Source of the DNA: a virus
Virus record (IMG/VR): IMGVR_UViG_3300025426_000051
Location: 1 to 43,038 of that record
DNA length: 43,038 nt
Direction: 5' to 3' (one strand)
This document shows positions 5,631 to 32,657 of the stretch, piece by piece; position 1 is the stretch's first letter; each line of letters begins with the position of its first letter. Under the pieces are notes generated by a model, which saw only the letters and a list, made by a program, of their open reading frames with translations, made no database searches and was not told the DNA's origin. The position numbers and the translations under genes are program-made.

Positions 5631-5632
5631 TA

Positions 5633-6376
5633 ATGAAATTAGTAACAGTTACTTGGTCATACGAAGATGAGCCTAAAGTAGATAATTCTTTTTTGGTTCT
5701 TTCTTTTTTAAAAAATAATAACATAAGTGACATACATAATATCCATTTTAATAGAAACAATTATAAAGATTTAGAGTCTGAATTCAATGAAAAATTCGGT
5801 AATCAATATGAATTCTTGTTATATAGAATTTTTTTATTAAAAGATTATTTGTTGAAATCCGATCTCGAAAATATTGTATTTGCGGACACAAATGATGTGG
5901 TTTGTTTGAATAGCATTAATAACATTGTTATAGACCCAAATTCCGTTGTTTTCTCAAGTGAACGACATAGATATCCAAATGAAGAAAGTATCGGGAATTG
6001 GTCTCCTACGCACTTATATCCTGAATATAATAAAATCAATGAATTATTCCTTAATGGTGGTTTATCTTATGGTACTAAAGAATCGTTTATAAAATTATTT
6101 GATATATGTATAAATGAAATTTTTCCTTTGGAGTATAAAAATTTTGGTGGGGACCAAGGAGTTTATACTTATTTCTTTATAAACCAAAATGACGGATTGA
6201 TAAAAATTGATGAAACCAAATATTTTTTAAGTACTTATTTAAAATCCCCTAACGATTTTAGAAAAGACGATATTGGTGTTTATTCGTTAAAAACTAATTC
6301 ATATCCGATTTTCATTCACGATAATGGATGGAATTACGGTAGTCCAAAATTTATAAACCATTTTAATTTGATATGA
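5633..6376 (+). CDS. PLOD-like glycosyltransferase
   Basis: This 247-residue protein has FADTND (83-88), whose D-x-x-D may bind Mn2+, then FLNGGLSYG (139-147), FGGDQGVY (171-178) and a final H-D-N-G (about 232-235). This order (DxD, NGG/NSG, DQ, HxNG) matches the N-terminal glycosyltransferase domain of procollagen lysyl hydroxylase/galactosyltransferase-type proteins, which glycosylate hydroxylysine. It lies 3 bp behind the GT25 gene and its 3' end overlaps the next start. A diverged copy is at 7143-7865. Confidence 0.7.
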   Translation: MKLVTVTWSYEDEPKVDNSFLVLSFLKNNNISDIHNIHFNRNNYKDLESEFNEKFGNQYEFLLYRIFLLKDYLLKSDLENIVFADTNDVVCLNSINNIVIDPNSVVFSSERHRYPNEESIGNWSPTHLYPEYNKINELFLNGGLSYGTKESFIKLFDICINEIFPLEYKNFGGDQGVYTYFFINQNDGLIKIDETKYFLSTYLKSPNDFRKDDIGVYSLKTNSYPIFIHDNGWNYGSPKFINHFNLI

Positions 6377-7143
6377 TATTTGTAACAATTTGTATAGGTG
6401 AAGAAAGAAGAAATGACACTATGCACCTGTTAAATGATTTAAGAAACTTAGATTATAAAGTTTATTTGTTGACAAATATCGAATTTGACATTCAAAAATT
6501 TCAATTTTATAATGTAAAAATAGTCAAATTGGATGTTGATTCTTGGAATGATTTCCAAAGATTTCAAATCATAAAAACAGCATTTTTAAACGAAACAGAT
6601 GAATATGTATATTATTTAGATTCGGACTCTAGATTTTTTAATTTCAGGAATGAAAAATTCGATAAAGAAAAATTTGAAAATCTATTATCAACTATAGACT
6701 TTGATATTATGTGTCCGTGGTTTTTAGATCCAATTAAAACCCAATTGATACCACCAAATATAAATGACAATATAAATTATAGAAATTTTAAATTTGGATT
6801 CAATTCTTTGATTGAGTATTTCAAGACAAAAAATAAAAATTACTATGAAGATATCGAAAAATGTTCTCCTTTAGAAACTTTACTTATTTTTAAAAGGAGT
6901 GACAGAATGATATCCTTTCTTGATGAAATGTTAATAATTGTAGATAAATTGATTGTAGAAGAGAAAAAAATTGGTAGAATCTATCTTGCATCAGGTTGTG
7001 GATTTGCTATGAGAATGATGTGTAGCGTTTACAATATAAACATAATTACAAATAAAATAGTTTATCATTTTTTCAAAGGTAATTTCTTAAAGGAAGTTTT
7101 TTTATTTGATTCAATAATAGACAGAAACGAAACAATTTTTTAA
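6373..7143 (+). CDS. Putative glycosyltransferase with DSD motif (GT6-like?)
   Basis: This 256-residue protein has an N-terminal Rossmann-like start (MIFVTICIGEER), FQRFQIIKTAFL (about 62-73) and Y-Y-L-D-S-D-S-R-F (80-88), the acidic triad typical of GT-A enzymes that handle UDP-sugars. The arrangement resembles GT6 (alpha-Gal/ABO-type) proteins, but I cannot confirm the family. The start overlaps the previous stop by 4 bp and the stop overlaps the next start by 1 bp. Codon use is AT-richer than in its neighbour at 3682-4932, suggesting separate acquisition. Confidence 0.65.
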   Translation: MIFVTICIGEERRNDTMHLLNDLRNLDYKVYLLTNIEFDIQKFQFYNVKIVKLDVDSWNDFQRFQIIKTAFLNETDEYVYYLDSDSRFFNFRNEKFDKEKFENLLSTIDFDIMCPWFLDPIKTQLIPPNINDNINYRNFKFGFNSLIEYFKTKNKNYYEDIEKCSPLETLLIFKRSDRMISFLDEMLIIVDKLIVEEKKIGRIYLASGCGFAMRMMCSVYNINIITNKIVYHFFKGNFLKEVFLFDSIIDRNETIF

Positions 7144-7865
7144 TGAAAAAATACTCCTTAATTACTACTTATTATTGTAAAGATTGTAACTATTCAACAG
7201 ATAATCGATTTAATTTCGATGGTAATTCGGAAGATTTCTACATTAATTTTTCCAATGAATTTTCACCATTTGATATGGATAAAATACCGTATGTTGGTGT
7301 TACAAAAAGGAGAGATTTAGTTTATGGTAAAATATTTTTATTAAAAGATTTTATAGAAAAAAATATATTAGATAAATACGAATATTTGTGTCATATAGAT
7401 TATAGCGATACTAAATTTTCAGGTAGCTTTATGGAAATGATGAAAAAATTTGAATCATCCAATATGGATTTTATAATATCAACAGAAAAAAAATGCTGGC
7501 CATATCTTCACTCAGTCAATAACTGGTTAGATTCTCCATCATCAGACGAAGAGTTTAAATTTATAAATTCGGGTGCAATTATATCAAAAACTGAAAAATT
7601 TTTACTATATTTAAATAAATTAATCGACATATGTTTAAATGAAAATATTGATTTTTGGGACGATCAGGGAGTTTGGCAATATTATAATTTGAAGATAGAA
7701 AAATTAAACGCAGATACTAATTGTGAGTACTTTTTTTCAACCTCAGAATTGGATGAAACTTACTATACAATTGAAAATAATAAAATAAAAACTAAATTTG
7801 AAACATATCCTTATTTAATTCACGATAACGGTAGTTTCAACTTAAACTTAATATCAAAAATATGA
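7143..7865 (+). CDS. PLOD-like glycosyltransferase, second copy
   Basis: This 240-residue protein shares the layout of 5633-6376: KIFLLKDFI (about 63-71), H-I-D-Y-S-D-T (84-90), F-I-N-S-G-A (about 141-146), W-D-D-Q-G-V-W (about 171-177), and a closing H-D-N-G. The N-terminus is Cys-rich (three Cys in the first 25). The two copies are diverged, so different acceptors or sugars are likely. It overlaps the next gene by 4 bp. Confidence 0.65.
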   Translation: MKKYSLITTYYCKDCNYSTDNRFNFDGNSEDFYINFSNEFSPFDMDKIPYVGVTKRRDLVYGKIFLLKDFIEKNILDKYEYLCHIDYSDTKFSGSFMEMMKKFESSNMDFIISTEKKCWPYLHSVNNWLDSPSSDEEFKFINSGAIISKTEKFLLYLNKLIDICLNENIDFWDDQGVWQYYNLKIEKLNADTNCEYFFSTSELDETYYTIENNKIKTKFETYPYLIHDNGSFNLNLISKI

Positions 7866-8476
7866 GCGGAGTAGCAGGACACTTTTTTTATAAAGATACC
7901 ATCATTTCACAAAACCCAAACGTAGCGGGACCATTCAAAACATTATTTGAAACAATAAAACCAAATCAAATCCTTGAAGTTGGTACATCCCACGGAGGAT
8001 TAACATTGTTATTGAGAGATTTATTAGACGAATCGGGTTTATCTGAATGTCAATTAACATCGTATGATGTTTTAGATTTTCAGAGATACGGATTAGATAA
8101 AGCAATAAATGAGGGTGCTAAAATAAATTTCATACTTAAAAATGTTTTCAATCATCAATACAATGATTTAGTGGAAATAGATGAAATTGTTAATTATATC
8201 AAACAATCGGGCCCTACAATTGTATTGTGTGATGGTGGAAGTAAAAAGAACGAGTTTAAAATATTGTCTAAATTTTTAAAACCAGGTGATATTATTATGG
8301 CTCACGACTATGCTGCTAACCAGCAATATTTTGAAGAAAATATAAAAGATAAAATTTGGAACTGGTTAGAAATACAAGATTCAGATATACAAGAAGCGTC
8401 TGATGAAAATGGATTAACTCCATTCCAACAAGATAACTTTACCAACGTTGTTTGGGTTTGTAAAATAAAAAATTAA
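7862..8476 (+). CDS. CmcI-like SAM-dependent hydroxylase/methyltransferase
   Basis: This 204-residue Rossmann protein has L-E-V-G-T-S-H-G-G (38-46) as SAM-binding motif I, an acidic residue in S-Y-D-V-L-D (about 69), L-C-D-G-G-S (about 121-126) and M-A-H-D-Y-A (about 144-149). These match the cephalosporin hydroxylase (CmcI)/rhamnosyl O-methyltransferase family, common in polysaccharide and O-glycan clusters. It probably methylates a sugar added by the neighbouring transferases. It lacks the metal-binding C-terminal extension of some CmcI members. Confidence 0.75.
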   Translation: MSGVAGHFFYKDTIISQNPNVAGPFKTLFETIKPNQILEVGTSHGGLTLLLRDLLDESGLSECQLTSYDVLDFQRYGLDKAINEGAKINFILKNVFNHQYNDLVEIDEIVNYIKQSGPTIVLCDGGSKKNEFKILSKFLKPGDIIMAHDYAANQQYFEENIKDKIWNWLEIQDSDIQEASDENGLTPFQQDNFTNVVWVCKIKN

Positions 8477-8477
8477 T

Positions 8478-10151
8478 ATGTCTACAACAATAGTAACAGG
8501 TATTTGGGATATTAAAAGGGACCAATTATCAGAAGGATGGAATAGAAATTACGATCATTACTTAAATAACTTAGCTAAGTTGATGAAGTGTGATGATAAT
8601 ATGATAATTTATATTGAAGAAAAATATAAATCATTCGTTGAAGAAAGAAGGGACACTTCCAATACAATGATAATTGTTAGAGAACTCGATTGGTTCAAAA
8701 GTAATGGTGAAATGTGTAGTATGATTGAAAAAATAAGAACTAATCCTGATTGGTTTAATCAATCTGGTTGGTTACCTGAAAGTACTCAAGCAAAATTAGA
8801 AATGTATAATCCAATTGTTATGTCAAAAATGTTTTTGATGAATGACGCAGCAATATTGGATCCATTCAATTCAACTAATTTAGTTTGGATTGATGGAGCA
8901 TTGACAAATACAGTTCACGAAGGTTATTTTTGGCACGATAATGTAGTTAAAAATTTAGATAAGTTTTTCAATAAATTTAGTTTCGTTTGTTTTCCCTATG
9001 ACGGTAAAGTAGAAATACACGGATTCAAATATCAGGAGATTTGTCAATACGCTGAAGATGTAGTTAACAAAGTAGCTAGAGGTGGAATTTTTGGTGGTCC
9101 TAAAGAAATTATCAGTAGAGTAAACGACATTTACCATTCGTTATTGATGGAGACGCTATCAAAAGGTTTGATGGGTACTGAAGAAAGTATTTTTACGATT
9201 ATGGTCTACAAATATCCTGAACTTTTTCAGTACTACGAAATTGAAATGAATGGATTATTGGGGATGTTTTTCGAAAATCTAAAAAATAAAAATTTATACC
9301 CGAAAACAGAAAAAGCCGATACGATTAAAATTAATCCACACGATAAGAACAACGTCGCTCTTTATGTATTGACTTATAATTCACCAAGTCAATTTGAAAA
9401 ACTCTGCTTATCTTTTGGTGAATATGATGAAGATTTTTTGAATAAACCAAAGAAATATCTTATCAATAATTCATTGGATCACACTACAGATGAAGCTTAT
9501 AATAACTTATGTGTTCAATACGGATTTGAAGAAATTAAAAAAGATAATATAGGTATTTGTGGTGGTAGACAATTTATAGCTGAACACGCAGATGAAAATG
9601 GATTCGACTATCATTTCTTTTTTGAGGATGATATGTTTTTTTATATGGGTGAGGATGAATTTTGTAAGAATGGTTTTAGAAGAAAAATTAAAAATTTCTA
9701 TGATATTGTTATGAATATTACTTGGAATGAGAATTTTGATTTTTTAAAATGGAATTTTACGGAATTTTTCGGTGATAACAGTAAACAATGGGCTTGGCAT
9801 AATGTACCTGCAGGAGTTAGAGCTGAATTATTTCCTGAAAAACCCGTTAAAACAACAATTGATACCAATGCTGCTCCATTCTTAAAATTCAAAAATATAA
9901 AATCATACAGAAAAGTTCCATATGCAACTGGCGAGATTTATTATTGTAATTGGCCTCAAGTGGTTTCAAAAGAAGGAAATAGAAAAATGTTTTTAGATAT
10001 TAAATGGGCCCATCCATTTGAACAAACTTGGATGTCTTATATGTACCAAGAAACGTTGAAAGATAATTTATATCCGGGTATTTTATTAGCAACACCTACC
10101 GAGCATAATAGATTTGATTTTTATTCCGGTAGCCATAGAAGGGAAAATTGA
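8478..10151 (+). CDS. Two-domain glycosyltransferase: YibB/HtrL-like + GT-A
   Basis: In this 557-residue protein the N-terminal 270 residues start MSTTIVTGIWDIKRD, followed by Y-I-E-E-K-Y and N-P-I-V-M-S-K-M, as in the YibB/HtrL family found in LPS clusters. From about residue 290 (VALYVLTYNSPSQFEKLC) a second GT-A-like domain begins, with ICGGRQFIAEHA and F-F-E-D-D-M-F-F-Y (about 378-386) as the DxD-like site. The fusion would couple two sugar additions in one polypeptide. The C-terminal tail (about 440-557) is aromatic-rich and unassigned. It is the last gene of the operon. Confidence 0.75.
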   Translation: MSTTIVTGIWDIKRDQLSEGWNRNYDHYLNNLAKLMKCDDNMIIYIEEKYKSFVEERRDTSNTMIIVRELDWFKSNGEMCSMIEKIRTNPDWFNQSGWLPESTQAKLEMYNPIVMSKMFLMNDAAILDPFNSTNLVWIDGALTNTVHEGYFWHDNVVKNLDKFFNKFSFVCFPYDGKVEIHGFKYQEICQYAEDVVNKVARGGIFGGPKEIISRVNDIYHSLLMETLSKGLMGTEESIFTIMVYKYPELFQYYEIEMNGLLGMFFENLKNKNLYPKTEKADTIKINPHDKNNVALYVLTYNSPSQFEKLCLSFGEYDEDFLNKPKKYLINNSLDHTTDEAYNNLCVQYGFEEIKKDNIGICGGRQFIAEHADENGFDYHFFFEDDMFFYMGEDEFCKNGFRRKIKNFYDIVMNITWNENFDFLKWNFTEFFGDNSKQWAWHNVPAGVRAELFPEKPVKTTIDTNAAPFLKFKNIKSYRKVPYATGEIYYCNWPQVVSKEGNRKMFLDIKWAHPFEQTWMSYMYQETLKDNLYPGILLATPTEHNRFDFYSGSHRREN

Positions 10152-15251: not shown

Positions 15252-15326
15252 ATGGTTTGGTCACCATTAAACGATAATACTTTAAAACGAAAAGGAGGTA
15301 TTCCAAATCTCGACATTGAGGCGTAA
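15252..15326 (+). CDS. Tiny 24-aa gene ending in a terminator loop
   Basis: The frame from ATG 15252 to TAA 15326 encodes 24 residues opening M-V-W-S-P-L-N-D-N and ending I-P-N-L-D-I-E-A. It is preceded by the ATATTTATA element at a typical distance and a purine-rich stretch. Its TAA is the loop of the hairpin GAGGC-GTAA-GCCTC, a compact arrangement that argues for a real gene. No family is recognised; it might be a small virion peptide or a leader. Confidence 0.45.
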   Translation: MVWSPLNDNTLKRKGGIPNLDIEA

Positions 15327-15342
15327 GCCTCTTTGTTGTTTT
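15318..15342 (+). terminator. Terminator with GTAA tetraloop
   Basis: GAGGC (15318-15322) and GCCTC (15327-15331) close a GTAA tetraloop, followed by TTTGTTGTTTT. It ends the forward virion-type operon. Confidence 0.7.
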
Positions 15343-15352
15343 ATACCCTTTC

Positions 15353-15383
15353 AATAAAAAACCCCTACATTTCTGTAAGGGTT
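15353..15383 (-). terminator. Terminator of the tmRNA
   Basis: Read on the minus strand, AACCCTTACA pairs with TGTAGGGGTT (one mismatch) around a short loop, followed by TTTTTATTG. It lies 40 nt beyond the tmRNA 3' end. Confidence 0.7.
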
Positions 15384-15422
15384 CCTGAGTGGCAAACAAA
15401 ATTGATAAGATTTCAATTGTTG

Positions 15423-15838
15423 TGGAGATGATCGGAGTCGAACCGATGTCTTCCAAATTCAACAATAAGTGACTACACGTTTATTTAATTGGTTCTCAAT
15501 TAACAAATAGAAGGTTCTTTTTTTTCCATCATTACCTACAACTGTGGGAAGATCACTTCAATCGGTAGACCCTCAAACGGTAGACCCTCAAACGGTACCT
15601 TGACACTCTAAGGTGGTATCACACCGTAAGGACTTCTGTTCCTAGGTTATATGTCCGTCGACCCGAGGTAGGGACCTAATTTAATTAGGCAGCTACTTTA
15701 GAAGTTGCAAGAACACCTGCAATTTCCATGTTGTTATAAACGTTTGCGTTTATCTTTTCAGTCCAGTTTTTAAAGAGTTATACTAGCTCTTACGTGCCAC
15801 CTATCCCTGATATCTGAAATCAAATCCAAGGCATCCCC
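15423..15838 (-). ncRNA. ssrA: Phage-encoded tmRNA (ssrA)
   Basis: The 5' end GGGGATG (15838-15832) pairs with CATCTCC (15430-15424) through a G3-U70 wobble, the alanine identity pair, with discriminator A. The T-arm is ATCGG-TTCGACT-CCGAT. The resume codon is GCA at 15747-15745 in the context CGCAAACG, as in E. coli, and the tag reads 20 residues, opening A-N-V-Y-N-N-M-E and ending S-K-V-A-A, with TAA at 15687-15685. Downstream lie GC-richer pseudoknot-like segments and a 15-nt tandem duplication. The 3' CCA is not encoded. A TATCTTTG promoter box lies 10 nt upstream and a terminator follows. The RNA would rescue stalled ribosomes during infection and mark products for proteolysis. Confidence 0.92.
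15564..15593. repeat. 15-nt tandem duplication inside the tmRNA
   Basis: The unit ggtagaccctcaaac occurs twice in a row (15564-15578 and 15579-15593), and a third partial copy (ggtacc) follows. It lies in the pseudoknot region between the tag frame and the tRNA-like 3' part. Confidence 0.85.
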
Positions 15839-15848
15839 ATATAAAAAA

Positions 15849-15856
15849 CAAAGATA
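15849..15856 (-). promoter_or_regulatory. TATCTTTG -7 box of the tmRNA
   Basis: It is an exact match to the Bacteroidota -7 consensus TAnnTTTG, 10 nt before the tmRNA 5' end. No clear -33 TTG was found. Confidence 0.65.
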
Positions 15857-15860
15857 TGGT

Positions 15861-16079
15861 TTATTTTGTAACTTTAGGCTTTTTAGCTACAGCTTTTTTT
15901 ACTTTAGTTTCAACAGCAGCAACTTCATCTTTAACTTTTTGTTCAGTTGAAGCAACTTTAGATTTAACTTCTTTTATTTCATCTTTAACTGCTGATTCAA
16001 GTTGTTTTAATTCAACCGCTTTTTCGGCCATTGAACCACCACCTAACAAAGATTTAATTAAGTCAATAATTTTTTTCAT
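15861..16079 (-). CDS. Small amphipathic coiled-coil protein (72 aa)
   Basis: The N-terminus (MKKIIDLIKSLLGGGSM) is a short amphipathic helix, like membrane-binding peptides. Residues 18-72 are an extended charged helix with repeating (V/A)-x-x-x-V-K/E, then a Lys/Ala/Val-rich tail like histone H1 or apolipoprotein tails. There is no catalytic motif. The start at 16079 follows ATATATTTATTAA. It could coat DNA or membrane, or be a small virion component; the evidence is only compositional. Confidence 0.65.
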   Translation of the reverse strand: MKKIIDLIKSLLGGGSMAEKAVELKQLESAVKDEIKEVKSKVASTEQKVKDEVAAVETKVKKAVAKKPKVTK

Positions 16080-16090
16080 ATTTTCTATTT

Positions 16091-16103
16091 TTAATAAATA
16101 TAT
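16091..16103 (-). promoter_or_regulatory. ATATTTATTAA element
   Basis: It is sense-oriented and 11 nt upstream of the start at 16079. Confidence 0.45.
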
Positions 16104-16117
16104 ACAAAAATTGCAAA

Positions 16118-16861
16118 TTAATCAATTATGGTGGCCACAATTTCCCCATAAACCTCTGTTAAATCGATTATGATGGGTTTATTGATTGGTTCATACCTTT
16201 CATTACAGATTGAAGCATTAACAAATAAAGTTTCTTTAACATAAGCAGGTCCATATGCTCCGTGAATGTGACCGAATACGTTAATTTTTGGATTAATTTG
16301 TTCTATACGATACCTTAATAATTCACAACCTACGTTTTCATTACCTCTCCATTGAGCAACAAAATCTCTAATTCCATTTGGTGGTCCGTGGGTTATTAAT
16401 ATATCGGTATCATCAGGAATTGCTTTCCATTTAGATTCCAATGCGGGACCTAATCTATCTAAATTAAAAGCCCAATCGTAAAATCTTGGTTGCCAAGGAC
16501 TTCCGTAAATTTTAATCGGTCTACTGAATTGAGGATCATTGATGATTAATTCACTATCGTGTAAATACGTTACATTACTCTGACTTAAATTTTCTTCATT
16601 CAATAAATGATGAAGCCAAGGAGCTTCGTTGTTATGTCTTACCCCATTATAATATTCAAAACCAAAATCGTGATTTCCTGCAATGAATATTTTGTGGTCA
16701 AAACCATCTATATTTTGAAACCAATAAACAAAATCTTCAATTTCTTTTTCTTTTCCTTTATTGGTACAATCACCAGCGTGAAGGAGCATATCACCCTGAG
16801 GTAATGGATTGGTCATTTTTTTATGTAGACCATGTGTGTCAGATATACAAACAATTCTCAT
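16118..16861 (-). CDS. Calcineurin-like metallophosphoesterase
   Basis: This 247-residue protein carries the full di-metal signature: I-S-D-T-H (6-10), A-G-D-C (29-32), G-N-H-D-F (62-66), I-T-H-G-P-P (about 155-160) and F-G-H-I-H-G (about 195-200). These five blocks define the calcineurin-like superfamily and place it nearest to the small UPF0046/MPPED-type phosphodiesterases. The substrate could be a cyclic nucleotide, 2',3'-cyclic phosphate or nucleic-acid end. A role against cyclic-nucleotide defence signals is attractive but unproven. A TATATTTG box lies only 4 nt before the start codon. Confidence 0.88.
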   Translation of the reverse strand: MRIVCISDTHGLHKKMTNPLPQGDMLLHAGDCTNKGKEKEIEDFVYWFQNIDGFDHKIFIAGNHDFGFEYYNGVRHNNEAPWLHHLLNEENLSQSNVTYLHDSELIINDPQFSRPIKIYGSPWQPRFYDWAFNLDRLGPALESKWKAIPDDTDILITHGPPNGIRDFVAQWRGNENVGCELLRYRIEQINPKINVFGHIHGAYGPAYVKETLFVNASICNERYEPINKPIIIDLTEVYGEIVATIID

Positions 16862-16865
16862 AATT

Positions 16866-16873
16866 CAAATATA
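16866..16873 (-). promoter_or_regulatory. TATATTTG -7 box before metallophosphoesterase
   Basis: It is an exact TAnnTTTG match 4 nt upstream of the ATG; if used, the transcript would be leaderless. Confidence 0.5.
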
Positions 16874-16889
16874 CAAAAAAATTTGAAAT

Positions 16890-16915
16890 AAAAAAAACCC
16901 CGAACAAACGGGGTT
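16890..16915 (-). terminator. Terminator of gene 16942-17955
   Basis: AACCCCG (16896-16902) pairs with CGGGGTT (16909-16915). On the minus strand it is followed by eight T. Confidence 0.8.
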
Positions 16916-16941
16916 ATGTTCCATTATCGAAATTTAGAAAC

Positions 16942-17955
16942 TTATGGATTATTAACATTTTGAATTGTAGGTTGTGAAGGTAATACAGGAGCATTAACTG
17001 TTGGTTCCGGTAAATTCACATTAGTCTTTACTAAATCAGCACTTAAATCGCTTTTTGCTCTGTTACCGCCACTAATTCCCATTATTTTATCGAATATTTC
17101 TTGTGTAACACCTGCTTCTCTTGTGTATTCAGGTGCCGCTTTTTTAACTGCAGCTTCGGTGGCAGTCCAAAAATTACCAGTAGGTTTAACTCCTAATCTT
17201 TCTTGCATCATTTTGATATTTTCACCTTTTTGTTGGAATTTCAACGGCATTTTTTCATTAGGAATGAAATTCGTTTTAGCAACACCGCTACTTGCTTGTT
17301 TCTTAGCTAATTCTGATCCAGGACAAGCTTTTGCAGCAATAGCAAGTTCATTTGCTGTAGGTTTATATGTTTGAACATATGAAACCCAATCAAGATTATT
17401 GAATGAACTAGCGGGTTGAATTATTTTTCCTCCTTTAACTGAACAGTACATTGTATTAATATTTCCCTGTCTTGTTGGATTTGTAGTAGATGGGGTTGGA
17501 TTAGTATTTGGAGCACTTCCACCTGAAATACTAAATTTACCTGTGAAAACATCACGAACATTAGCCGCCATACCTTCAACAGTATTTTCAATACCATTGT
17601 TTACTTTGAAACCAAGTTTAGTTAAATGGTCAGCAACTATTTTTACATATTGTACATCATTTCTTCCGAAACCAGAATTGATACAATCTACTATACTTTT
17701 TTGTTCTGTTTTAGTTAAAAATGAATTTATATTCCAATATTGTGCTGCACTTGTAATTTTATTAATAGCATCTGCTAATTCTTTTTCGTTTGAATGATAT
17801 GAATGGAAAGAAATTTCACTAGCAAGTTTTTCCTCGGGACTATTACCTTGGAAAACTTGTTCCTGTATATTTTTTTTATTTTCGGTCAATGTTTTACCCA
17901 TTTGGTAACTCATCATTAACTTGACTCTCTCCAATATAATTTTATTATTTCCCAT
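16942..17955 (-). CDS. Probable virion protein with PG-binding-like domain and targeting-like N-terminus
   Basis: Starting at ATG 17955 the product is 337 residues. The N-terminal 35 residues form a helix (IILERVKLMMSYQMGK) followed by T-L-T-E and N-I-Q-E, (L/I)xE-type sites as in 13509-14624. A helical domain follows (about 40-125). After a Pro/Thr/Asn-rich linker, residues about 235-290 read LKFQQKGENIKMMQERLGV...TGNFWTATEAAVKK, matching peptidoglycan-binding domain 1. The C-terminus is Pro-rich. It may be a tail or capsid-internal protein that contacts the cell wall. The upstream in-frame ATG at 17985 is less likely because it overlaps the ATATTTATA element. Confidence 0.65.
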   Translation of the reverse strand: MGNNKIILERVKLMMSYQMGKTLTENKKNIQEQVFQGNSPEEKLASEISFHSYHSNEKELADAINKITSAAQYWNINSFLTKTEQKSIVDCINSGFGRNDVQYVKIVADHLTKLGFKVNNGIENTVEGMAANVRDVFTGKFSISGGSAPNTNPTPSTTNPTRQGNINTMYCSVKGGKIIQPASSFNNLDWVSYVQTYKPTANELAIAAKACPGSELAKKQASSGVAKTNFIPNEKMPLKFQQKGENIKMMQERLGVKPTGNFWTATEAAVKKAAPEYTREAGVTQEIFDKIMGISGGNRAKSDLSADLVKTNVNLPEPTVNAPVLPSQPTIQNVNNP

Positions 17956-17970
17956 TTGATATATTTTACT

Positions 17971-17982
17971 ATATAAATATAA
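17971..17982 (-). promoter_or_regulatory. ATATTTATAT element
   Basis: It is TTATATTTATAT on the minus strand, 15 nt upstream of ATG 17955. It overlaps the T-tract of the large RNA's terminator. Confidence 0.45.
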
Positions 17983-17983
17983 C

Positions 17984-18012
17984 AAAAAAAGGTTAAGAAA
18001 TAAATCTTAACC
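17984..18012 (-). terminator. Terminator of the about 1 kb structured RNA
   Basis: Minus strand GGTTAAGA pairs with TCTTAACC around a short AT loop, followed by seven T. Confidence 0.8.
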
Positions 18013-19016
18013 CTTGAGGTCTGTACGGTTCAAATAAATTTTAACCGAGTCCACCACTTAGTTTTAAAAAACTAAGAAAAAATAAGTTTAAATAAAACTC
18101 TGAGAATACAAGTTTTAACGAAACTCTTTCGAGGGATTATTTTGTTCCCACTCTTTTCCACTAACTTTTGGTTAGTAAGTTTCAATGACGGTCAATTAGA
18201 TTAACCAATCCTGAAGTTATTAGATACTCTTTTAATACTTATTACTCATCAAAGATGCCTCCCTGATTCAACCTTGCGGGTTTAGAGAACTTTCTCAAAA
18301 ATCATATTGGGCTTGAGACCCTTTATGGCAATGAACAGCTCATTACTATGTAGTCATCTATCTCCAATAACTGGTGAACACTTGCTCTTGTTTTATATGA
18401 TTGTTAAACCAAAATTAACAAATTGAGTTTGGTTTGCAGATGAGGAAAGTAGTGGTTCACCGACCAGCCAAGCCACCTTTTGAGCGACTCGATACTAAAC
18501 TACTCTCTGATGTCTCCCGACATCCATATTTTTGGTTTCCTTCGAGATTAAACCCTTGGTAGGATTTAGTCAAGGACAATAGCAGCACCACCTGTTCTTT
18601 GCCATACCTTCCGTATTGCTACGCTACGGTTTTAAGACCACCATTATATTGAACCACGCAATAATAAAGTTGGATGACTTTATTTCTTACAATAGTTCTA
18701 CGAGTTATTCTTATTGATGTTCCCACCTCAACCAGACAACCTGCATTGCCCAGTCATCGAACCCTTTCGCTACGGAGTTACCCTCACTACTTCAGGTCCA
18801 ACGATATCTCGCTTGTCTACTCGAGCTCCATTGCTGAAGCCGCAAATCGATTAAACCAAACCGATTCACTTTATCCCACTTTCGTGGTTTATTTTATTGA
18901 CTATAGACCGCCAATATTTTTAATTCAAAGAACTATTCAATTAAATAAGAACAATCTTTACCCTCTAAGCTACGGACAGATGGGATTTATATTCCGTCGA
19001 TTGTTCCTTTCTTTTA
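17985..19016 (-). ncRNA. About 1 kb highly structured non-coding RNA (giant ornate RNA candidate)
   Basis: No minus-strand reading frame of useful length exists across about 1,030 nt. The stretch is clearly GC-richer than its surroundings and holds many strong hairpins: GATGTC-GGGA-GACATC and CTC-GAAA-GAG (GNRA loops), ACTAAC-CAAAA-GTTAGT, CCTTG...CAAGG, CCGTA...TACGG, CGGTT...AACCG. GGTGAAC in one hairpin loop (around 18455) can pair with GTTCACC (around 18375), a long-range or pseudoknot contact. A TATCTTTG box lies just upstream at 19017-19024, and a terminator ends the RNA. Size, ornateness and phage/tRNA setting recall GOLLD and ROOL RNAs, but I cannot confirm homology; it may be a new class. 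Its role is unknown. Confidence 0.72.
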
Positions 19017-19024
19017 CAAAGATA
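19017..19024 (-). promoter_or_regulatory. TATCTTTG -7 box of the large RNA
   Basis: It is identical to the box before the tmRNA. It places the RNA start near 19010. The upstream region is T-rich, without a clear -33 TTG at the usual spacing. Confidence 0.6.
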
Positions 19025-19077
19025 CATAAACATTTTCAAAAAGAAAAATAATTTTGAAACTTTTTTTAAAAATTTTT

Positions 19078-20016
19078 TTATATTAATTTTAATTGCTCTT
19101 TTTTTTGTGTTTTTGTTAATTGATTTAACTCATTTTCAAGTTCTTTCATTCTTTCAATTTTATAATTTTCGTCGGTTTTAAATCTAAATTTACTAAACCA
19201 TACATGTTCGTAATTTAGGGTTTCGTGATCGATATGATTTGGATTTTTAGCCCAAAATAAACCACATCCGACTTTTGTTAAATCTATCTCAGGATAGGAA
19301 ACATATATAAAATTTTCTAATGATTCTACCTTCAAATTTAATTTTCTTGCGCTATATCCCATAATTCCTTGGTCCGCTAATAACCACAACCACTCGGGTA
19401 TTTTTTCATAATTTCTTTTGATGATACTCAAATGTTTATTCAGATAATCCTCACAAAGTTCATTATTATTTATATATAAAAATGAAGTATTTGGCATTAA
19501 CATGTTTTGTGCAAAATCTTCAATTCCACCGATGCTATCAATTTGTTGGTTTGAAACAAAAAATTCACCTCTTTGTATTTCCCAATGAGTATGAACTAAA
19601 TCATAATCATATATCCAATTGGGTAATTCGTCCCTTATTATTAAATCATTATCTAAAAATATGAATGGTTCTTTTTGTTTTCCTATAACAATTGATTTTC
19701 CAGTAGTCCAAAATTTACCTGCTTTTATATCATTATTTTCATTATCAAAAGTGTTAAGTGTATCAACATCAATTTCATCCCACAAATCTAACAAATTTAA
19801 TTTTTTGTAAAATTCAAAACCAATTGTATCAGTATAAAGTTTAGTATGTCCTATATGTTTTTTTGCACGTAGAACGGCTACTTTTTGAATCAATAATTCA
19901 TAATCAACAATATTATAATTAGTTTCATCAATGTCAGACATTTTAATTTTATTATAACCTTCAGCATCATTTTTATGAAAAAAAGGTTTTGTCCAATTTA
20001 CAAAAATTGCTTTCAT
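19078..20016 (-). CDS. Glycosyltransferase-like protein (DUF6734-like?)
   Basis: This 312-residue protein opens MKAIFVNWTKPFF, then T-K-L-Y-T-D (about 79-84) and P-F-I-F-L-D-N-D-L-I-I (about 119-129), a D-x-D in the position expected for GT-A enzymes. H-T-H-W-E and N-T-S-F-L-Y-I follow. The pattern resembles Bacteroidota proteins annotated DUF6734, thought to be sugar transferases. The C-terminus ends in a charged helix. It shares one base with the upstream GT gene (20016-20777), so the pair is coupled. Confidence 0.65.
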   Translation of the reverse strand: MKAIFVNWTKPFFHKNDAEGYNKIKMSDIDETNYNIVDYELLIQKVAVLRAKKHIGHTKLYTDTIGFEFYKKLNLLDLWDEIDVDTLNTFDNENNDIKAGKFWTTGKSIVIGKQKEPFIFLDNDLIIRDELPNWIYDYDLVHTHWEIQRGEFFVSNQQIDSIGGIEDFAQNMLMPNTSFLYINNNELCEDYLNKHLSIIKRNYEKIPEWLWLLADQGIMGYSARKLNLKVESLENFIYVSYPEIDLTKVGCGLFWAKNPNHIDHETLNYEHVWFSKFRFKTDENYKIERMKELENELNQLTKTQKKEQLKLI

Positions 20017-27787: not shown

Positions 27788-27821
27788 TCTTTTCGTTTTA
27801 CATAAGTATTTGTTTATGAAG

Positions 27822-27906
27822 CGGAGAGTAGTGGTAACGATCCACTTTGGGTTTTACCCCAGCCTCGGTTTAGCAAACCGGCCTCTTACCTTTCGAGCAA
27901 CTCTCC
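27822..27906 (-). tRNA. tRNA-Ser(GCT)
   Basis: Acceptor GGAGAGT/ACTCTCC, anticodon loop TTGCTAA, a long variable arm and discriminator G fit serine. The T-loop is ATCGTTA: A54 and T58 replace the usual T54/A58. CCA is not encoded. Confidence 0.9.
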
Positions 27907-27910
27907 ATTG

Positions 27911-27981
27911 TTGTCCCTCAGGGATTCGAACCCCAACTAGATGGACCAAAACCATCTGTACTACCGTTATACTAAAGGACA
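27911..27981 (-). tRNA. tRNA-Gln(TTG)
   Basis: Acceptor TGTCCTT/AGGGACA (one wobble), loop TTTTGGT with anticodon TTG, canonical T-loop TTCGAAT, discriminator A. CCA is not encoded. Confidence 0.92.
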
Positions 27982-28063
27982 ATAATCTCAAGCATTCTAC
28001 TTCCCGCAGCACGAAATTGTATCTAACTTAGCCCAACGTTAGCGGTATGGGTACTTGAGTTGG

Positions 28064-28136
28064 AGCGAAAAACCAGGAACGATCTGGCAACCCTCAGTTT
28101 GGAAAACTGATGCTCTACCAATTGAGCTATTTTCGC
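28064..28136 (-). tRNA. tRNA-Gly(TCC)
   Basis: Acceptor GCGAAAA/TTTTCGC, loop TTTCCAA with anticodon TCC, discriminator T. T-loop ATCGTTC has the A54/T58 swap. The bases after T73 read CCA, so the tail may be encoded. Confidence 0.92.
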
Positions 28137-28192
28137 ATTTGGTGACTGAAAAAAACCTATTCTTCTTGTGGTCTTGTCACCGGAGACCCGTG

Positions 28193-28264
28193 AGCTCAAT
28201 AACAGACTCGAACTGTTGTCTAATGATTACAAATCACTTGTTCTACCAACTGAACTAATCGAGC
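28193..28264 (-). tRNA. tRNA-Thr(TGT), copy 1
   Basis: Acceptor GCTCGAT/ATTGAGC, loop TTTGTAA, T-loop TTCGAGT, discriminator T. It is nearly identical to the copy at 31736-31807; one acceptor base differs. Confidence 0.92.
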
Positions 28265-28266
28265 AA

Positions 28267-28377
28267 TTATTGGAACTTTAGAAGGTATTCCAACTGATGG
28301 TTTAATACTTTACCACACCACGATTCGCGAGCTGTAAGACCCCAATCATTGATACTCTTCTTACGCTTACACTTCAA
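28267..28377 (-). CDS. Possible 36-aa basic mini-gene between tRNAs (TTG start)
   Basis: The frame from TTG 28377 encodes a basic peptide opening K-C-K-R-K-K-S-I-N-D-W-G-L-T-A-R, which looks protein-like. Its TAA ends 3 nt before the tRNA-Thr 5' end, the same stop-against-tRNA layout as the larger genes in this cluster. There is no ATG start, so it could be a decayed gene remnant. Confidence 0.3.
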   Translation of the reverse strand: MKCKRKKSINDWGLTARESWCGKVLNHQLEYLLKFQ

Positions 28378-28387
28378 GTATCTAGTG

Positions 28388-28460
28388 AGCGAAAAACCAG
28401 GCTCGAACTGGCCACCTTCTACTTGGCAAGCAGACGCTCTACCTAATGAGCTATTTTCGC
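28388..28460 (-). tRNA. tRNA-Gly(GCC)
   Basis: Acceptor GCGAAAA/TTTTCGC, loop TTGCCAA with anticodon GCC, canonical T-loop TTCGAGC. It shares the acceptor with tRNA-Gly(TCC) but not the swapped T-loop. Confidence 0.92.
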
Positions 28461-28524
28461 AAATGTTGAGTGAGACTAACTCAACGTCATTTATTTGTAC
28501 ATAATAAACATTTAAGTCTTTTTG

Positions 28525-28600
28525 TAGAAGATATTGGATTCGAACCAATGATCTCTTGTGTGTAAAACAAGCGCTTTAAAACCAGCTAAGCGAATCTTCT
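28525..28600 (-). tRNA. tRNA-Val(TAC)
   Basis: Acceptor AGAAGAT/ATCTTCT, anticodon stem CTTGT/ACAAG with loop TTTACAC, T-loop TTCGAAT, discriminator A. The stop codon of the endonuclease gene 28576-29244 lies inside this tRNA. Confidence 0.9.
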
Positions 28601-29244
28601 ATGTTATATTTGTCGTTTTTTATTTTTTTAATGTCATCTTTTTTTATGATAATTAAATTTTTTACAACTTTCCATTTACATCTATCACGTTCTCTTTCAA
28701 AACCTTTCACCTCAATATATCTATCAAACTCCGTTAAATAAAAATCGGGGAAATAAAGATGTATTGAATTTTCCCATTCATATTCAAATGGTTTTAATTT
28801 ATTTGTCCATTTGATATTATTTTTATCTAACCATTTCGCCACTTCTAGTTCCCATGTTCCTTTTAATTTGAAACCTTTATACTCTATTATTGGTGTTCTT
28901 CCACTAACATTAGATGCGGTATAACTTTCAGGATTATTAAGAACAGCATTTTTCATTGCTTCTCTATGTTTTTTTCTTTGTTCTTCGTTTAATTTATTTC
29001 CTTTATTATTTTTACTTAATTTTTTTCTTGTTTCATCACTAATAAAAATTTTTCTACCTTCTAACTTGGCTTTAGTATATTGATTTTTATTTTCTTTTTT
29101 TATTAAACCATTTTTTAATTTTTCATTATAAATTATAAAATTAGATTTAATGTTTTGACAATTAGGATTTAATTTACATAATCTTTCATGATTTCTTAAA
29201 CTATTTCCATTTTTACACTCTTTATTACAAAATTTACATTCCAT
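28576..29244 (-). CDS. Mobile (homing-type) endonuclease: zinc finger, NUMOD-like, PD-(D/E)xK
   Basis: In this 222-residue protein residues 3-23 hold a C2H2-like finger (C-K-F-C...H-E-R-L-C). Residues 72-100 (S-D-E-T-R-K-K-L-S-K...E-Q-R-K-K-H-R-E-A-M-K) resemble the NUMOD3 DNA-binding repeats of homing enzymes. The C-terminal part has an acidic helix (W-E-L-E-V-A-K-W-L), F-P-D-F (about 166-169) and I-E-V-K-G (about 178-182), the PD-(D/E)xK nuclease core. Its stop codon lies within tRNA-Val, so insertion next to the tRNA kept both functional. An ATATTTATATAA element lies 16 nt upstream of the start. Confidence 0.75.
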   Translation of the reverse strand: MECKFCNKECKNGNSLRNHERLCKLNPNCQNIKSNFIIYNEKLKNGLIKKENKNQYTKAKLEGRKIFISDETRKKLSKNNKGNKLNEEQRKKHREAMKNAVLNNPESYTASNVSGRTPIIEYKGFKLKGTWELEVAKWLDKNNIKWTNKLKPFEYEWENSIHLYFPDFYLTEFDRYIEVKGFERERDRCKWKVVKNLIIIKKDDIKKIKNDKYNIEDSLSWF

Positions 29245-29260
29245 TTAAAATATGTTTATA

Positions 29261-29273
29261 TTATATAAATATA
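29261..29273 (-). promoter_or_regulatory. ATATTTATATAA element before endonuclease gene
   Basis: It reads TATATTTATATAA on the minus strand, 16 nt upstream of the ATG at 29244. Confidence 0.45.
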
Positions 29274-29314
29274 AGAAAAAATGGAGTTATTTGTTCTAAC
29301 CTATTATTTTTTTG

Positions 29315-29390
29315 TGGGTGAGTTCGGATTCGAACCGAAGACCTAAAGTTTATGAGACTTTTGCTCTAAAACCAGCTGAGCTACACACCC
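29315..29390 (-). tRNA. tRNA-Met(CAT)
   Basis: Acceptor GGGTGTG/CTCACCC with one T-T mismatch, anticodon stem AAAGT/ACTTT with loop CTCATAA, T-loop TTCGAAT, discriminator A. It is an elongator-type Met, though a lysidine-modified Ile2 cannot be excluded. Confidence 0.88.
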
Positions 29391-29401
29391 GAAATATTTT
29401 G

Positions 29402-29481
29402 TTGGGGTGGACGGACTCGAACCGCCGAACTCGAAAGAACAGATTTACAGTCTGCCGTCATTGCCACTAGACTACACCCCA
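29402..29481 (-). tRNA. tRNA-Tyr(GTA)
   Basis: Acceptor TGGGGTG/CACCCCA, loop CTGTAAA, bacterial-type long variable arm, T-loop TTCGAGT, discriminator A. Confidence 0.92.
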
Positions 29482-29530
29482 ATTTTGTACTTCCTTTTGG
29501 ATTTGTTGTTTAGTACTAACCACTCCACCG

Positions 29531-29611
29531 TGACCAAGGAGAGACTCGAACTCTCACGCATTTCTGCACCAGATCCTAAGTCTGGCGTGGCTGCCATTAC
29601 ACCACTCGGCC
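29531..29611 (-). tRNA. tRNA-Leu(TAG)
   Basis: Acceptor GGCCGAG/CTTGGTC with two wobbles, stem CCAGA/TCTGG with loop CTTAGGA, variable arm GCA-GAAA-TGC, discriminator A. Confidence 0.9.
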
Positions 29612-29708
29612 ATTTAGTCTTTTCCTTACCTCTTAATAACCACATTGCCATTCCGGTGTTACTGCCGGACGCTTACCATTTGTTCAAACGGAAGTGATTA
29701 TCACGTTG

Positions 29709-29780
29709 CGCTGATTCAGAATTACGATATCTGGACCCCGAAATTAATAGTTTCGTGCTCTGCCTCTGAGCTAAATCAGC
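29709..29780 (-). tRNA. tRNA-Asn(ATT), unusual A34 anticodon
   Basis: Acceptor GCTGATT/AATCAGC, stem CGAAA/TTTCG, loop CTATTAA giving anticodon ATT; discriminator G fits Asn. The T-loop ATCGTAA has the A54/T58 swap, and the base pair 53-61 is T-T. GTT is the normal Asn anticodon. Confidence 0.8.
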
Positions 29781-29785
29781 ATTTG

Positions 29786-29859
29786 TCGAGTAAGCAGGAT
29801 TCGAACCTACGGCATCTTGGTCCCAAACCAAGCATTCTACCGGACTGAATTATTACTCG
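29786..29859 (-). tRNA. tRNA-Pro(TGG)
   Basis: Acceptor CGAGTAA/TTACTCG, stem CTTGG/CCAAG with loop TTTGGGA, T-loop TTCGAAT, discriminator A. Confidence 0.92.
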
Positions 29860-29910
29860 ATGGTCGGCTCCGATTTTTTATACAGAACGTTGCCGAAGTA
29901 AACTGTTTTG

Positions 29911-29983
29911 TGATCCCGACAAGGGTCGAACTTGTAACCTACAGTTTAGAAAACTGTCGCTCTAACCATTGAGCTACGGGACC
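29911..29983 (-). tRNA. tRNA-Arg(TCT)
   Basis: Acceptor GGTCCCG/CGGGATC, stem ACAGT/ACTGT with loop TTTCTAA, T-loop TTCGACC, discriminator A. Confidence 0.92.
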
Positions 29984-29987
29984 ATTG

Positions 29988-30075
29988 TGATCCTGGTTGG
30001 ATTTGAACCAACACGAACATTACTGTTCAATAGATTTTAAGTCTATCGCGTGCTACTAATTTCGCCACCAAGGTA
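29988..30075 (-). tRNA. tRNA-Leu(TAA), imperfect acceptor
   Basis: Stem ATAGA/TCTAT with loop CTTAAAA, variable arm GAACA-GTAA-TGTTC, T-loop TTCAAAT. The acceptor TACCTTG/CAGGATC has mismatches at pairs 1 and 3. Confidence 0.85.
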
Positions 30076-30131
30076 TTTGTTTCCCAATATGTCAAAGATC
30101 AATACTAATATAAAAAATAAAAGTCACTAAA

Positions 30132-30166
30132 ACAAAAAACCCGAACATTTTTTAGAAGTTCGGGTT
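30132..30166 (-). terminator. Terminator, end of a minus-strand unit
   Basis: AACCCGAAC (30138-30146) pairs with GTTCGGGTT (30158-30166), then TTTTTTG on the minus strand. It separates the tRNAs at 27.8-30.1 kb from those upstream. Confidence 0.78.
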
Positions 30167-30190
30167 GTAATATCTTAAGTTAAATTTATC

Positions 30191-30298
30191 TTAGATTAGT
30201 GTGTCCGAACTTAAAGTGCATGTAGGTTGCACAAGATAGCCATTACCATTATTTAATGGTCTACTCGTAATCCCCAATATGTTATTTAAGTTCTTCAT
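30191..30298 (-). CDS. 35-aa small protein with host-type promoter
   Basis: The frame from ATG 30298 to TAA 30191 encodes 35 residues opening M-K-N-L-N-N-I-L-G-I. A TATATTTG box with TTTG 20 nt further upstream lies just before it, and a terminator follows, so it is a complete mini transcription unit. No family is recognised. The layout matches the small unit at 34697-34870. Confidence 0.5.
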   Translation of the reverse strand: MKNLNNILGITSRPLNNGNGYLVQPTCTLSSDTLI

Positions 30299-30316
30299 CG
30301 TTTATATAATTATATG

Positions 30317-30324
30317 CAAATATA
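30317..30324 (-). promoter_or_regulatory. Host-type promoter: TTTG-N20-TATATTTG
   Basis: An exact -7 box is preceded by TTTG at 20 nt, the Bacteroidota spacing. It drives the 35-aa gene. Confidence 0.65.
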
Positions 30325-30367
30325 CAAAAAGTATAAATAGGAAACAAATATTTTATTAATTATTTTT

Positions 30368-30523
30368 TTACCAACGTCTAGGCGGCGGTGAAAATCTCGG
30401 TTGTTGATATCTATGAACGTGATACATTCTACTCCAAGGATGGTAATGAGAATATGCTCTTCGTTCCATATAACAACCTGATAAAGTTGTTATTAACAAT
30501 ACAAAAAATAATATCTTTTTCAT
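30368..30523 (-). CDS. 51-aa lipoprotein
   Basis: ATG 30523 opens M-K-K-I-L-F-F-V-L-L-I-T-T-L-S-G-C, a signal peptide with lipobox L-S-G-C (Cys17). The mature part is rich in His, Tyr, Arg and Pro. It begins 2 nt after an ATATTTATTG element. It would be anchored in the host membrane, perhaps for exclusion or lysis control. No family is recognised. Confidence 0.65.
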   Translation of the reverse strand: MKKILFFVLLITTLSGCYMERRAYSHYHPWSRMYHVHRYQQPRFSPPPRRW

Positions 30524-30525
30524 AT

Positions 30526-30535
30526 CAATAAATAT
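30526..30535 (-). promoter_or_regulatory. ATATTTATTG element before the lipoprotein gene
   Basis: It is sense-oriented and ends 2 nt before the ATG at 30523. Confidence 0.45.
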
Positions 30536-30568
30536 TGAACCCCAAAAGTCATCGTGATTAAAAAAAAG

Positions 30569-30640
30569 TATTCGGTGCGGGAATCGAACCCGCGACTGGT
30601 CTTAGAAAGAGACCCGTGATAACCCCTTCACTAACCGAAC
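30569..30640 (-). tRNA. tRNA-Glu(TTC)
   Basis: Acceptor GTTCGGT/ACCGAAT with a terminal wobble, stem GGTCT/AGACC with loop CTTTCTA, T-loop TTCGATT, discriminator A. Confidence 0.92.
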
Positions 30641-30843
30641 TTTTCGGGACGAGTTAGGTTTCCTCATATGTCCCTACTTAATAGTTGTGTTTAGAGGGAA
30701 GTCCAAAACACGGTATTCACCAAAAGGGACTTTACTTTCGATTATCGCTGAAACTTTTAACTACGCTCAATTTATCTTTTAATTTGTTTCGTTTAACGTC
30801 CAAACAAATGTCCCAGTTGAGCGGGACAAAAAAGACGACCTGC
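30641..30843 (-). ncRNA. Structured RNA segment with pseudoknot, no gene
   Basis: About 200 nt without a reading frame. The hairpin GTCCC-GCTCAACT-GGGAC has a loop whose CGCTCAA can pair with TTGAGCG about 50 nt downstream, a classic pseudoknot. Further stems are ATTTGTTT/AAACAAAT and GTGTTT/AAACAC. It lies between tRNA-Glu and the 140-nt tRNA-like RNA. Confidence 0.45.
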
Positions 30844-30983
30844 AATCAAGATAGGATTTGAACCTACAAACCGTTTTCGTGTTCTTCCATTCCACTCAAC
30901 GACATACCTATGTGATCCTGCGGGAAGAAATCGTCCATCTTGCGATGCCTACATAGGTGTGTATACCACTACACTTCTTGATT
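30844..30983 (-). ncRNA. 140-nt tRNA-like RNA with enlarged middle
   Basis: It has a perfect acceptor AATCAAG/CTTGATT, a canonical D-arm (GTGT-AGTGGTAT-ACAC) and T-arm (GTAGG-TTCAAAT-CCTAT). Instead of an anticodon arm there is an 8-bp stem ACCTATGT/ACATAGGT closing 37 nt that include CATC-GCAA-GATG. About 38 nt more follow before the T-arm. No 7-nt anticodon loop can be drawn. It may be an interrupted tRNA, an intron-bearing tRNA or a distinct tRNA mimic. Confidence 0.65.
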
Positions 30984-31190
30984 ATGTTAATCACTCAAAT
31001 GGGTATTTGTTATAGTATCACAATTGTTGCACTATACTCTGGTTAATTACTCCGTCTGTACCCAACAGCTTTATGTTGGCTTATAATTGGCTACTTTACT
31101 ATAACTCACATTTTTATTTGTGATTAAAAATCCTCGTCTTTCCGAGGTGCCACTTAGTATTTTAGATTTCTCCTTGGGCTAAGACCCGTG
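30984..31190 (-). ncRNA. Structured RNA segment, no gene
   Basis: Hairpins include CCTCG-GAAAGA-CGAGG followed by ATTTTTAA (terminator-like), CCAACA-TAAAGC-TGTTGG and TATAGT...ACTATA. No reading frame and no canonical tRNA were found. Confidence 0.4.
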
Positions 31191-31807: not shown

Positions 31808-31854
31808 TTCTTTTAACAAAGATAATAAATAAAATTTAATATTCCAAATTTTTT

Positions 31855-32478: not shown

Positions 32479-32490
32479 AATTTTAAATAG

Positions 32491-32577: not shown

Positions 32578-32582
32578 ATATG

Positions 32583-32654: not shown

Positions 32655-32657
32655 ATT

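Follow-up and report, generated by a model that had tools for sequence, protein, structure and literature searches.

A GOLLD RNA with a boxA-like element in its leader, on a virus contig probably from a Bacteroidota phage

Introduction

What RNA does the minus strand of 17985-19024 encode in a 43-kb virus contig (IMG/VR record IMGVR_UViG_3300025426_000051), and how might a phage make it? We analysed the whole stretch of 43,038 nucleotides, which we call the window. An earlier note, made from the sequence, had proposed a structured RNA with its own promoter and terminator, belonging either to one of the giant RNA families GOLLD and ROOL or to a new class.

A mark of GOLLD is that its expression rises at lysis. 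Others are a conserved 3' domain joined by a distinct structured 5' domain of lower conservation, and a place in phages or prophages that is often close to tRNA genes. GOLLD has been described as a large RNA-only cage whose function is unknown (PMC12286853). The same paper sets out its two-domain layout and cage, which in GOLLD env-38 is a 14-mer solved by cryo-EM; it places the linker inside the cage, reports tRNAs in some GOLLD linkers and mentions a ribosome pull-down in its discussion. ROOL (RF03087) is presented there as another giant RNA cage of phages.

Results

We scanned the locus with the Rfam covariance models, including the four families that the earlier note had named (GOLLD, ROOL, OLE and HEARO). 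The GOLLD model (RF02032) matches 18507-18097 on the minus strand over its full length (model 1-416 of 416) with 300 bits and an E-value of 5.1e-85, the gathering score being 150. ROOL, OLE and HEARO give no match within 17500-19500 at E-values up to 5, and nothing besides GOLLD matches the minus strand of this interval in the same permissive scan. The window RNA is a GOLLD, a new member of a known family; the RNA class itself is not new. Of the affiliations first proposed, GOLLD stands, and ROOL and a new class fall away. The minus strand of 17985-19024 is a structured RNA gene of about 1 kb, as had been suggested, on the strength of the Rfam match and of a covarying 5' domain. The parts of the RNA are as follows.

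18508-18912, minus strand: GOLLD 5' domain, outside the Rfam model, defined by covariation in 31 loci
18097-18507, minus strand: GOLLD 3' domain, full-model match to RF02032
18455-18461, minus strand: pseudoknot arm GGTGAAC, pairing with 18373-18379
18373-18379, minus strand: pseudoknot arm GTTCACC, pairing with 18455-18461
18383-18450, minus strand: variable AT-rich linker of the 3' domain, without a tRNA; its middle is poorly conserved and it is unpaired in the Rfam model
18057-18076, minus strand: extra 3' hairpin beyond the Rfam model, found by eye
18027-18046, minus strand: second extra 3' hairpin, found by eye
17988-18015, minus strand: intrinsic terminator with an 11-bp stem, a 6-nt loop and a T run

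Several properties noted at the outset are borne out. The longest minus-strand open reading frame inside the element, among the listed frames of 30 amino acids or more, has 44 amino acids, and the element is richer in GC (0.373) than its 5' flank (0.250) and 3' flank (0.331). Its fold lies 4.15 standard deviations below 60 dinucleotide shuffles. For comparison we used 31 loci, which are 36 GOLLD loci minus exact duplicates (two are cut at the 5' end and one at the 3' end). RNAalifold finds 40 runs of pairs in them, so the claim of at least eight strong hairpins holds. Both GNRA loops are present, GAAA at 18883-18880 and GGGA within the hairpin at 18524-18509.

The earlier note had proposed covariation in homologues as a check, and in the 5' domain it is strong. 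In the alignment of the 31 loci, which has 29 distinct rows, 97.0% of the cells of 117 pairs hold a standard pair, compared with 81.0% after shuffling; both sides change in 75 pairs, where shuffling gives 50.6; the covariation score reaches 0.516 as against 0.202 for shuffled and at most 0.101 for slid partners; and none of 500 shuffles reaches any of the five measures, with the proviso that the structure was derived from the same, mutually related sequences, which inflates both comparisons. Even so, the 561 cells changed on both sides, against 162 after shuffling, lead us to regard 18912-18508 as a demonstrated, conserved and covarying GOLLD 5' domain. A further set of GOLLDs was selected by a motif of the 3' domain; in it the 5'-domain motif AAATAAAC occurs in 43 of 46 and ATAAAGTGA in 29 of 46; the exact core motif GTAACTC occurs in none of these 46. 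The string GGTTCGATG, once read as a T-loop-like stretch, does exist, but it forms one side of a helix (18803-18795 with 18763-18755) that covaries, and ARAGORN finds no tRNA.

In the 3' domain, GGTGAAC and GTTCACC are paired in 31/31 loci, and six of the seven pairs vary yet still pair. The outer helix of the Rfam model is likewise paired in all 31 and is crossed by this match, which therefore forms a pseudoknot; what had been recorded as a long-range match is real and carries compensatory changes. Of the two extra hairpins, the one at 18057-18076 reads CTTAG...CTAAG in the window and CTTTG...CAAAG in L053 and others, and the one at 18027-18046 reads GGTT...AACC in the window, with relatives that differ in letters and are still pairable (both judged by eye and uncounted). 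The clean terminator that had been described is supported at 18015-17988, where the 11-bp stem runs into the T run; the surrounding interval 15300-19200 holds seven terminator-like sites where 2.0 are expected. With its 3' domain, separate 5' domain and variable linker the window RNA resembles GOLLD env-38 in layout, as described in PMC12286853.

Which phage carries this RNA? A blastn search with the window RNA against 50,697 phage records matches only two, of 642 and 635 kb, and both contain a GOLLD (275 and 287 bits). Judging by their size, they appear to be genomes of a huge-phage study, in which the five genomes larger than 634 kb are predicted to have Bacteroidetes as hosts (PMC7162821). 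Among phages, the relatives listed first for the window phosphoesterase are Flavobacterium phages (46-47% identity). The guess of a Bacteroidota phage thus gains indirect support from the host prediction given in PMC7162821 and from the phosphoesterase kin, and the carrier is probably a large phage of Bacteroidota in which GOLLD forms its own transcription unit. Flavobacterium phage immuto, whose phosphoesterase resembles that of the window, gives no GOLLD match, though no control signal there either. The 43-kb record also has a tmRNA at 15422-15838 and 22 tRNAs at 27821-34480. Glycosyltransferase-like genes (GlcNAc, PLOD GT, HtrL_YibB) lie at 3682-10151 on the plus strand, with weaker GT25 and TAGT matches below the Pfam cut-offs.

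The core motif of the 5' domain was found in 34 stretches of viral contigs. A full GOLLD match is present on 33 of these contigs; the remaining one, 4.4 kb long, breaks off about 150 nt past the motif. Eight contigs reached only via the neighbouring DUF6734-like gene are without GOLLD, but all are fragments of 5.5-36.6 kb, so their absence of GOLLD is weak evidence. For the neighbour gene at 19078-20016 the phage collection yields no match. A pattern from the window 3' domain and a GC-rich GOLLD pattern both gave zero matches in viral contigs. In Firmicutes genomes (the phylum of G043) GOLLD was found in 0/398 and ROOL in 0/299, but the controls were silent too, which makes these zeros uninformative. 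One genome-contig match, L049, was dropped as a GOLLD locus, since no GOLLD was found there and the match is probably due to chance.

We then come to the leader, whose elements are listed here.

19017-19024, minus strand: promoter -7 box TATCTTTG, of TAnnTTTG type, by sequence match
18936-19005, minus strand: variable 5' leader segment, which holds the "D-arm" string; occupancy 0.34-0.41
18925-18933, minus strand: boxA-like element GTTCTTTGA, conserved across GOLLD leaders as G[TC]TCTTT[AG]A

The TAnnTTTG type is what we take to be the Bacteroidota promoter. Upstream of the 5' domain the alignment passes through a variable stretch, and conservation returns at the promoter box; TAnnTTTG stands at the position of the window box in 18 of the 31 loci. 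The promoter-like box reported before the 5' side is thereby supported as TATCTTTG at 19024-19017, conserved among relatives. A sigma-70 scan of 15300-19200, which excludes the TAnnTTTG type, shows no promoter excess (11 against 15.1 expected). From promoter type and kin we infer that the hosts of the viral contigs are of Bacteroidota type.

The segment between the box and the 5' domain had been thought to contain a tRNA D-arm. The string CCGTAGCTTAGAGGGTAAAG is indeed there, but its segment is absent from most relatives, ARAGORN in four modes finds no tRNA in 17985-19060, and the best match of the string elsewhere in the examined loci (19/28) is at the level of 20 shuffled queries (18-20); on these grounds we reject a tRNA-like leader. 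The fold of the segment is not significant (z of -0.94).

Farther along, directly before the 5' domain, the window has GTTCTTTGAA, whose 9-mer is GTTCTTTGA. The pattern G[TC]TCTTT[AG]A occurs in 29/31 GOLLDs of the window type. We also assembled a wider set of 62 GOLLDs picked by the 3' domain (111 loci, of which 36 were removed as duplicates and 13 because their upstream sequence was too short; they come from at least 120 matching viral stretches and are no census). Here the pattern lies 500-1000 nt upstream of the 3' motif in 57 of the 62, with exact GTTCTTTGA in 52, compared with 23 of 565 control windows of the same loci for the pattern. A narrower count over loci L099-L174 gives 42/46. 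The 9-mer is thus lacking in two of 31 and five of 62, and two of those five show a one-base variant by eye. Within the window itself, allowing at most one mismatch, we count 20 copies of GTTCTTTRAA where 21.2 are expected (three of them exact), so the case rests on position across relatives and not on count.

The promoter box travels with this element. TAnnTTT[GA] is found within 150 nt before it in 28 of the 29 loci that have it (in L050 the box sits 145 nt away and may be due to chance). The stricter TAnnTTTG is found within the same distance in 41 of 42, the rate in control windows being 8 of 51, and in 53 of 57 of the wider GOLLDs. The distance from box to 9-mer, start to start, is 29-36 nt in 41 of these 53 and 91 nt in the window. 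Between the 9-mer and the core motif TATRGTC the distance varies among 42 loci, from 27 to 120 nt, and hence the 9-mer does not belong to the fold as a fixed element.

Some leaders hold further elements. A hairpin of about 45 nt with a fixed loop pattern, AGGTGATGAAAGAYACTCGG, directly follows TAnnTTT[GA] boxes in phages of Bacteroidota type and often precedes boxA and GOLLD (e.g., L065, L070, L076, L079, L166, L183); the window leader is without it. A search for AGGTGATGAAAGAYACTCGG gave 97 stretches, from which 61 distinct copies were examined: a promoter box lies no more than 60 nt upstream of 51, and on the downstream side boxA follows within 260 nt in 43 and a GOLLD motif within 420 nt in 42. 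Because RNAalifold gave no structure for this motif, its pairs were set by hand, and on these pairs a stem of 6 bp or more is possible in 41/54 copies, compared with a mean of 12.8 with exchanged arms. It matches no Rfam family at E-values up to 0.05 in the four loci scanned, and is possibly an undescribed small RNA motif. The leaders of L063 and L074 share an insert, ACCTGAAGTRAGAGYRACAA...ACCAAATGGTT, between promoter box and boxA.

Is the 9-mer restricted to GOLLD? The scanned loci hold 97 distinct sites with promoter plus 9-mer, 69 of them before GOLLD motifs; among the other 28, several precede tmRNA or tRNA genes and others precede coding or unassigned sequence. The 9-mer lies within 40 nt before 7 of 20 tmRNAs, at 14-15 nt (L024, L025, L034, L135, L145, L148, L165), and within 200 nt before 55 of 411 tRNAs (18/148 leading, 37/263 internal), the predicted background being about 1-2% per 200 nt. 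By eye it also stands before the tmRNAs of L113, L125, L132, L202 and L203. The window tmRNA (15422-15838, minus strand, about 2.2 kb from GOLLD) has its own TATCTTTG box at 15849-15856, 10 nt before the gene, and is without the 9-mer. A tmRNA within 1.5 kb of GOLLD is seen in L065, L070, L077 and L078 as well.

A parallel is found in the leader of Bacteroidota rRNA operons. We fetched 14 Bacteroidota rRNA leaders by 16S start from plasmid-labelled records, a non-random choice of 14 from 23 Bacteroidota rows among the best 40 of 128 matched records. GTTCTTTGA is present in 11 of the 14, 124-222 nt upstream of 16S, and the exact 9-mer is missing from three. TAnnTTTG precedes it by 41-84 nt in eight of these 11, only by 173-176 nt in two, and is not found in one; somewhere in the 392-600 nt before 16S it occurs for 13 of the 14 genes. 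The order in the window is the same: a TAnnTTTG box is followed by GTTCTTTGA and this by a long untranslated RNA with structure. The differences are that no 16S follows the window leader, and that the spacing of box and 9-mer in the eight rRNA leaders contrasts with the mostly 29-36 nt of GOLLDs and the 91 nt of the window. We take GTTCTTTGA before Bacteroidota 16S to be the boxA of these operons. Similar boxA sequences occur in other phyla, so the 9-mer alone does not fix the host. The gamma-proteobacterial consensus is given as GYTCTTTAANA in PMC5725501, from which the window GTTCTTTGA is one base off, with G for A; the G form is the one that Bacteroidota rRNA leaders show. We found no Bacteroidota boxA consensus in print in the open-licence PMC literature.

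A different arrangement is found in Acinetobacter phages. Five of the eight Acinetobacter-phage records among 10 matches were taken; their GOLLDs score 207-225 bits, lie between tRNAs, and have the 9-mer near GOLLD in no case, and the two leaders inspected show a recognisable 5' domain. The phages are AM24, vB_AciJM_313, Ab15, YMC13/03/R2096 and Herod (L213-L217). Their annotation tables have no RNA feature at GOLLD, and in Ab15 small hypothetical open reading frames are annotated across it. A gamma-type boxA, predicted before these GOLLDs, is found in 0/5, where the start of the tRNA array may fall outside some of the stretches. The one ROOL leader checked, that of L. salivarius pMP118, is likewise without the 9-mer. 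It follows from the Acinetobacter phages that the element goes with stand-alone GOLLD units of Bacteroidota type and not with GOLLD as such.

These comparisons suggest that the leader 9-mer probably acts as boxA. Could it instead be a structural or processing element of an otherwise ordinary GOLLD, such as a 5' end or nuclease site, with no role as a transcription signal? Its near constancy (29/31; 57/62) and its place at the 5' edge of the RNA would fit, but the spacing to the fold varies over 27-120 nt, the five Acinetobacter-phage GOLLDs do without the 9-mer and the two leaders inspected have the 5' domain, and the same 9-mer precedes unrelated RNAs (tmRNA, tRNA) and host 16S genes. We consider this explanation unlikely.

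The tRNAs deserve a separate look, since GOLLD might chiefly be a tRNA-linked precursor or carrier that holds or delivers phage tRNAs, its leader serving their expression. Such a role would suit the Acinetobacter phages, with GOLLD between tRNAs, and the tRNAs that PMC12286853 reports in some linkers. The 3' end motif of GOLLD could be used in 48 loci, four of which have a tRNA starting 13-31 nt after it (another 48 loci were set aside for want of a recognisable motif and two for being too short), and tRNAs lie just downstream in others, such as L065, L068, L071 and L079. Several findings speak against it: in the 31 loci that were scanned ARAGORN places no tRNA within GOLLD, and the lengths of the 35 GOLLD matches in viral contigs and records are confined to 402-422 nt. 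In the window, GOLLD ends at a terminator of its own, linker and leader are both free of tRNAs, and the tRNA array begins 8.8 kb away. A tRNA-carrying role as the main one therefore seems rather improbable to us. The window GOLLD does resemble known GOLLDs in lying on a phage record with a tRNA array. In that array (27821-34554, minus strand, counting a borderline extra tRNA at 34485-34554) one tRNA is called Asn with the anticodon ATT (29708-29780), and endonuclease-like genes lie at 28576-29244 and 32658-33374.

Discussion

There is a negligible chance that the element represents a giant RNA of a new class or the remains of a coding region: half of it lies outside the Rfam model and a plus-strand open reading frame of 125 amino acids (18674-19051) crosses its 5' half, but the full-model GOLLD match at 300 bits refutes the first and the RNA-type covariation (117 pairs, 31 loci), with compensatory changes throughout, rules out the second.

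What is new here is the leader, with its boxA-like 9-mer between promoter box and GOLLD. GOLLD as described for env-38 in PMC12286853 differs in this respect from the window GOLLD, which is a unit with its own promoter and terminator and a boxA-like leader; the word boxA has no occurrence in the text of that paper. In the open-licence PMC literature we came across no description of GOLLD with a boxA leader, and one may exist elsewhere.

Judging from sequence comparison, we favour the hypothesis that GOLLD of Bacteroidota phages is transcribed like rRNA, through the antitermination machinery of the host. Host RNA polymerase would start at the TATCTTTG promoter, and the 9-mer, acting as a boxA, would bring in NusB and NusE (ribosomal protein S10) of the host, as happens at rRNA operons. 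The polymerase so modified would transcribe the whole untranslated RNA of about 1 kb without terminating early, and may aid its folding as it emerges; the terminator at 18015-17988 would then end transcription. NusB/NusE bind boxA in E. coli, where the Nus factors at rRNA are reported to serve folding rather than the blocking of Rho (PMC5725501). There is also a precedent for a long non-coding RNA other than rRNA: boxA lies upstream of CRISPR arrays (PMC7862264, citing Stringer et al.), and in Legionella a boxA before a synthetic CRISPR array yields about 10 times more precursor RNA, according to the same source. That system differs from the window GOLLD in both the RNA and the hosts.

Copies of the finished RNA would come together in a homo-oligomeric cage like the one solved for GOLLD env-38; by analogy with that structure, we think it quite likely that the window RNA forms one. 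Such a cage may benefit the phage in late infection, as a place where parts of the translation machinery (tRNAs, ribosomes) are held or exposed. That its cargo consists of such parts is a tentative suggestion.

It is tempting to speculate, with due reserve, that Bacteroidota phages have copied the rRNA module of the host, promoter plus boxA, for their stable RNAs; nearly all stand-alone GOLLDs would then use it, and GOLLD would be made, and perhaps folded, by the transcription complex that serves ribosome assembly in the host (NusB, S10 and partners). The two settings of GOLLD, behind promoter box and boxA in the Bacteroidota type and between tRNAs in Acinetobacter phages, offer a natural comparison. 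An rRNA-like leader would provide a handle on phage GOLLD production and link GOLLD to the host factors NusB and S10. If the phages have indeed copied the module, high GOLLD output during infection could draw NusB and S10 away from rRNA operons, and thereby throttle the assembly of new ribosomes.
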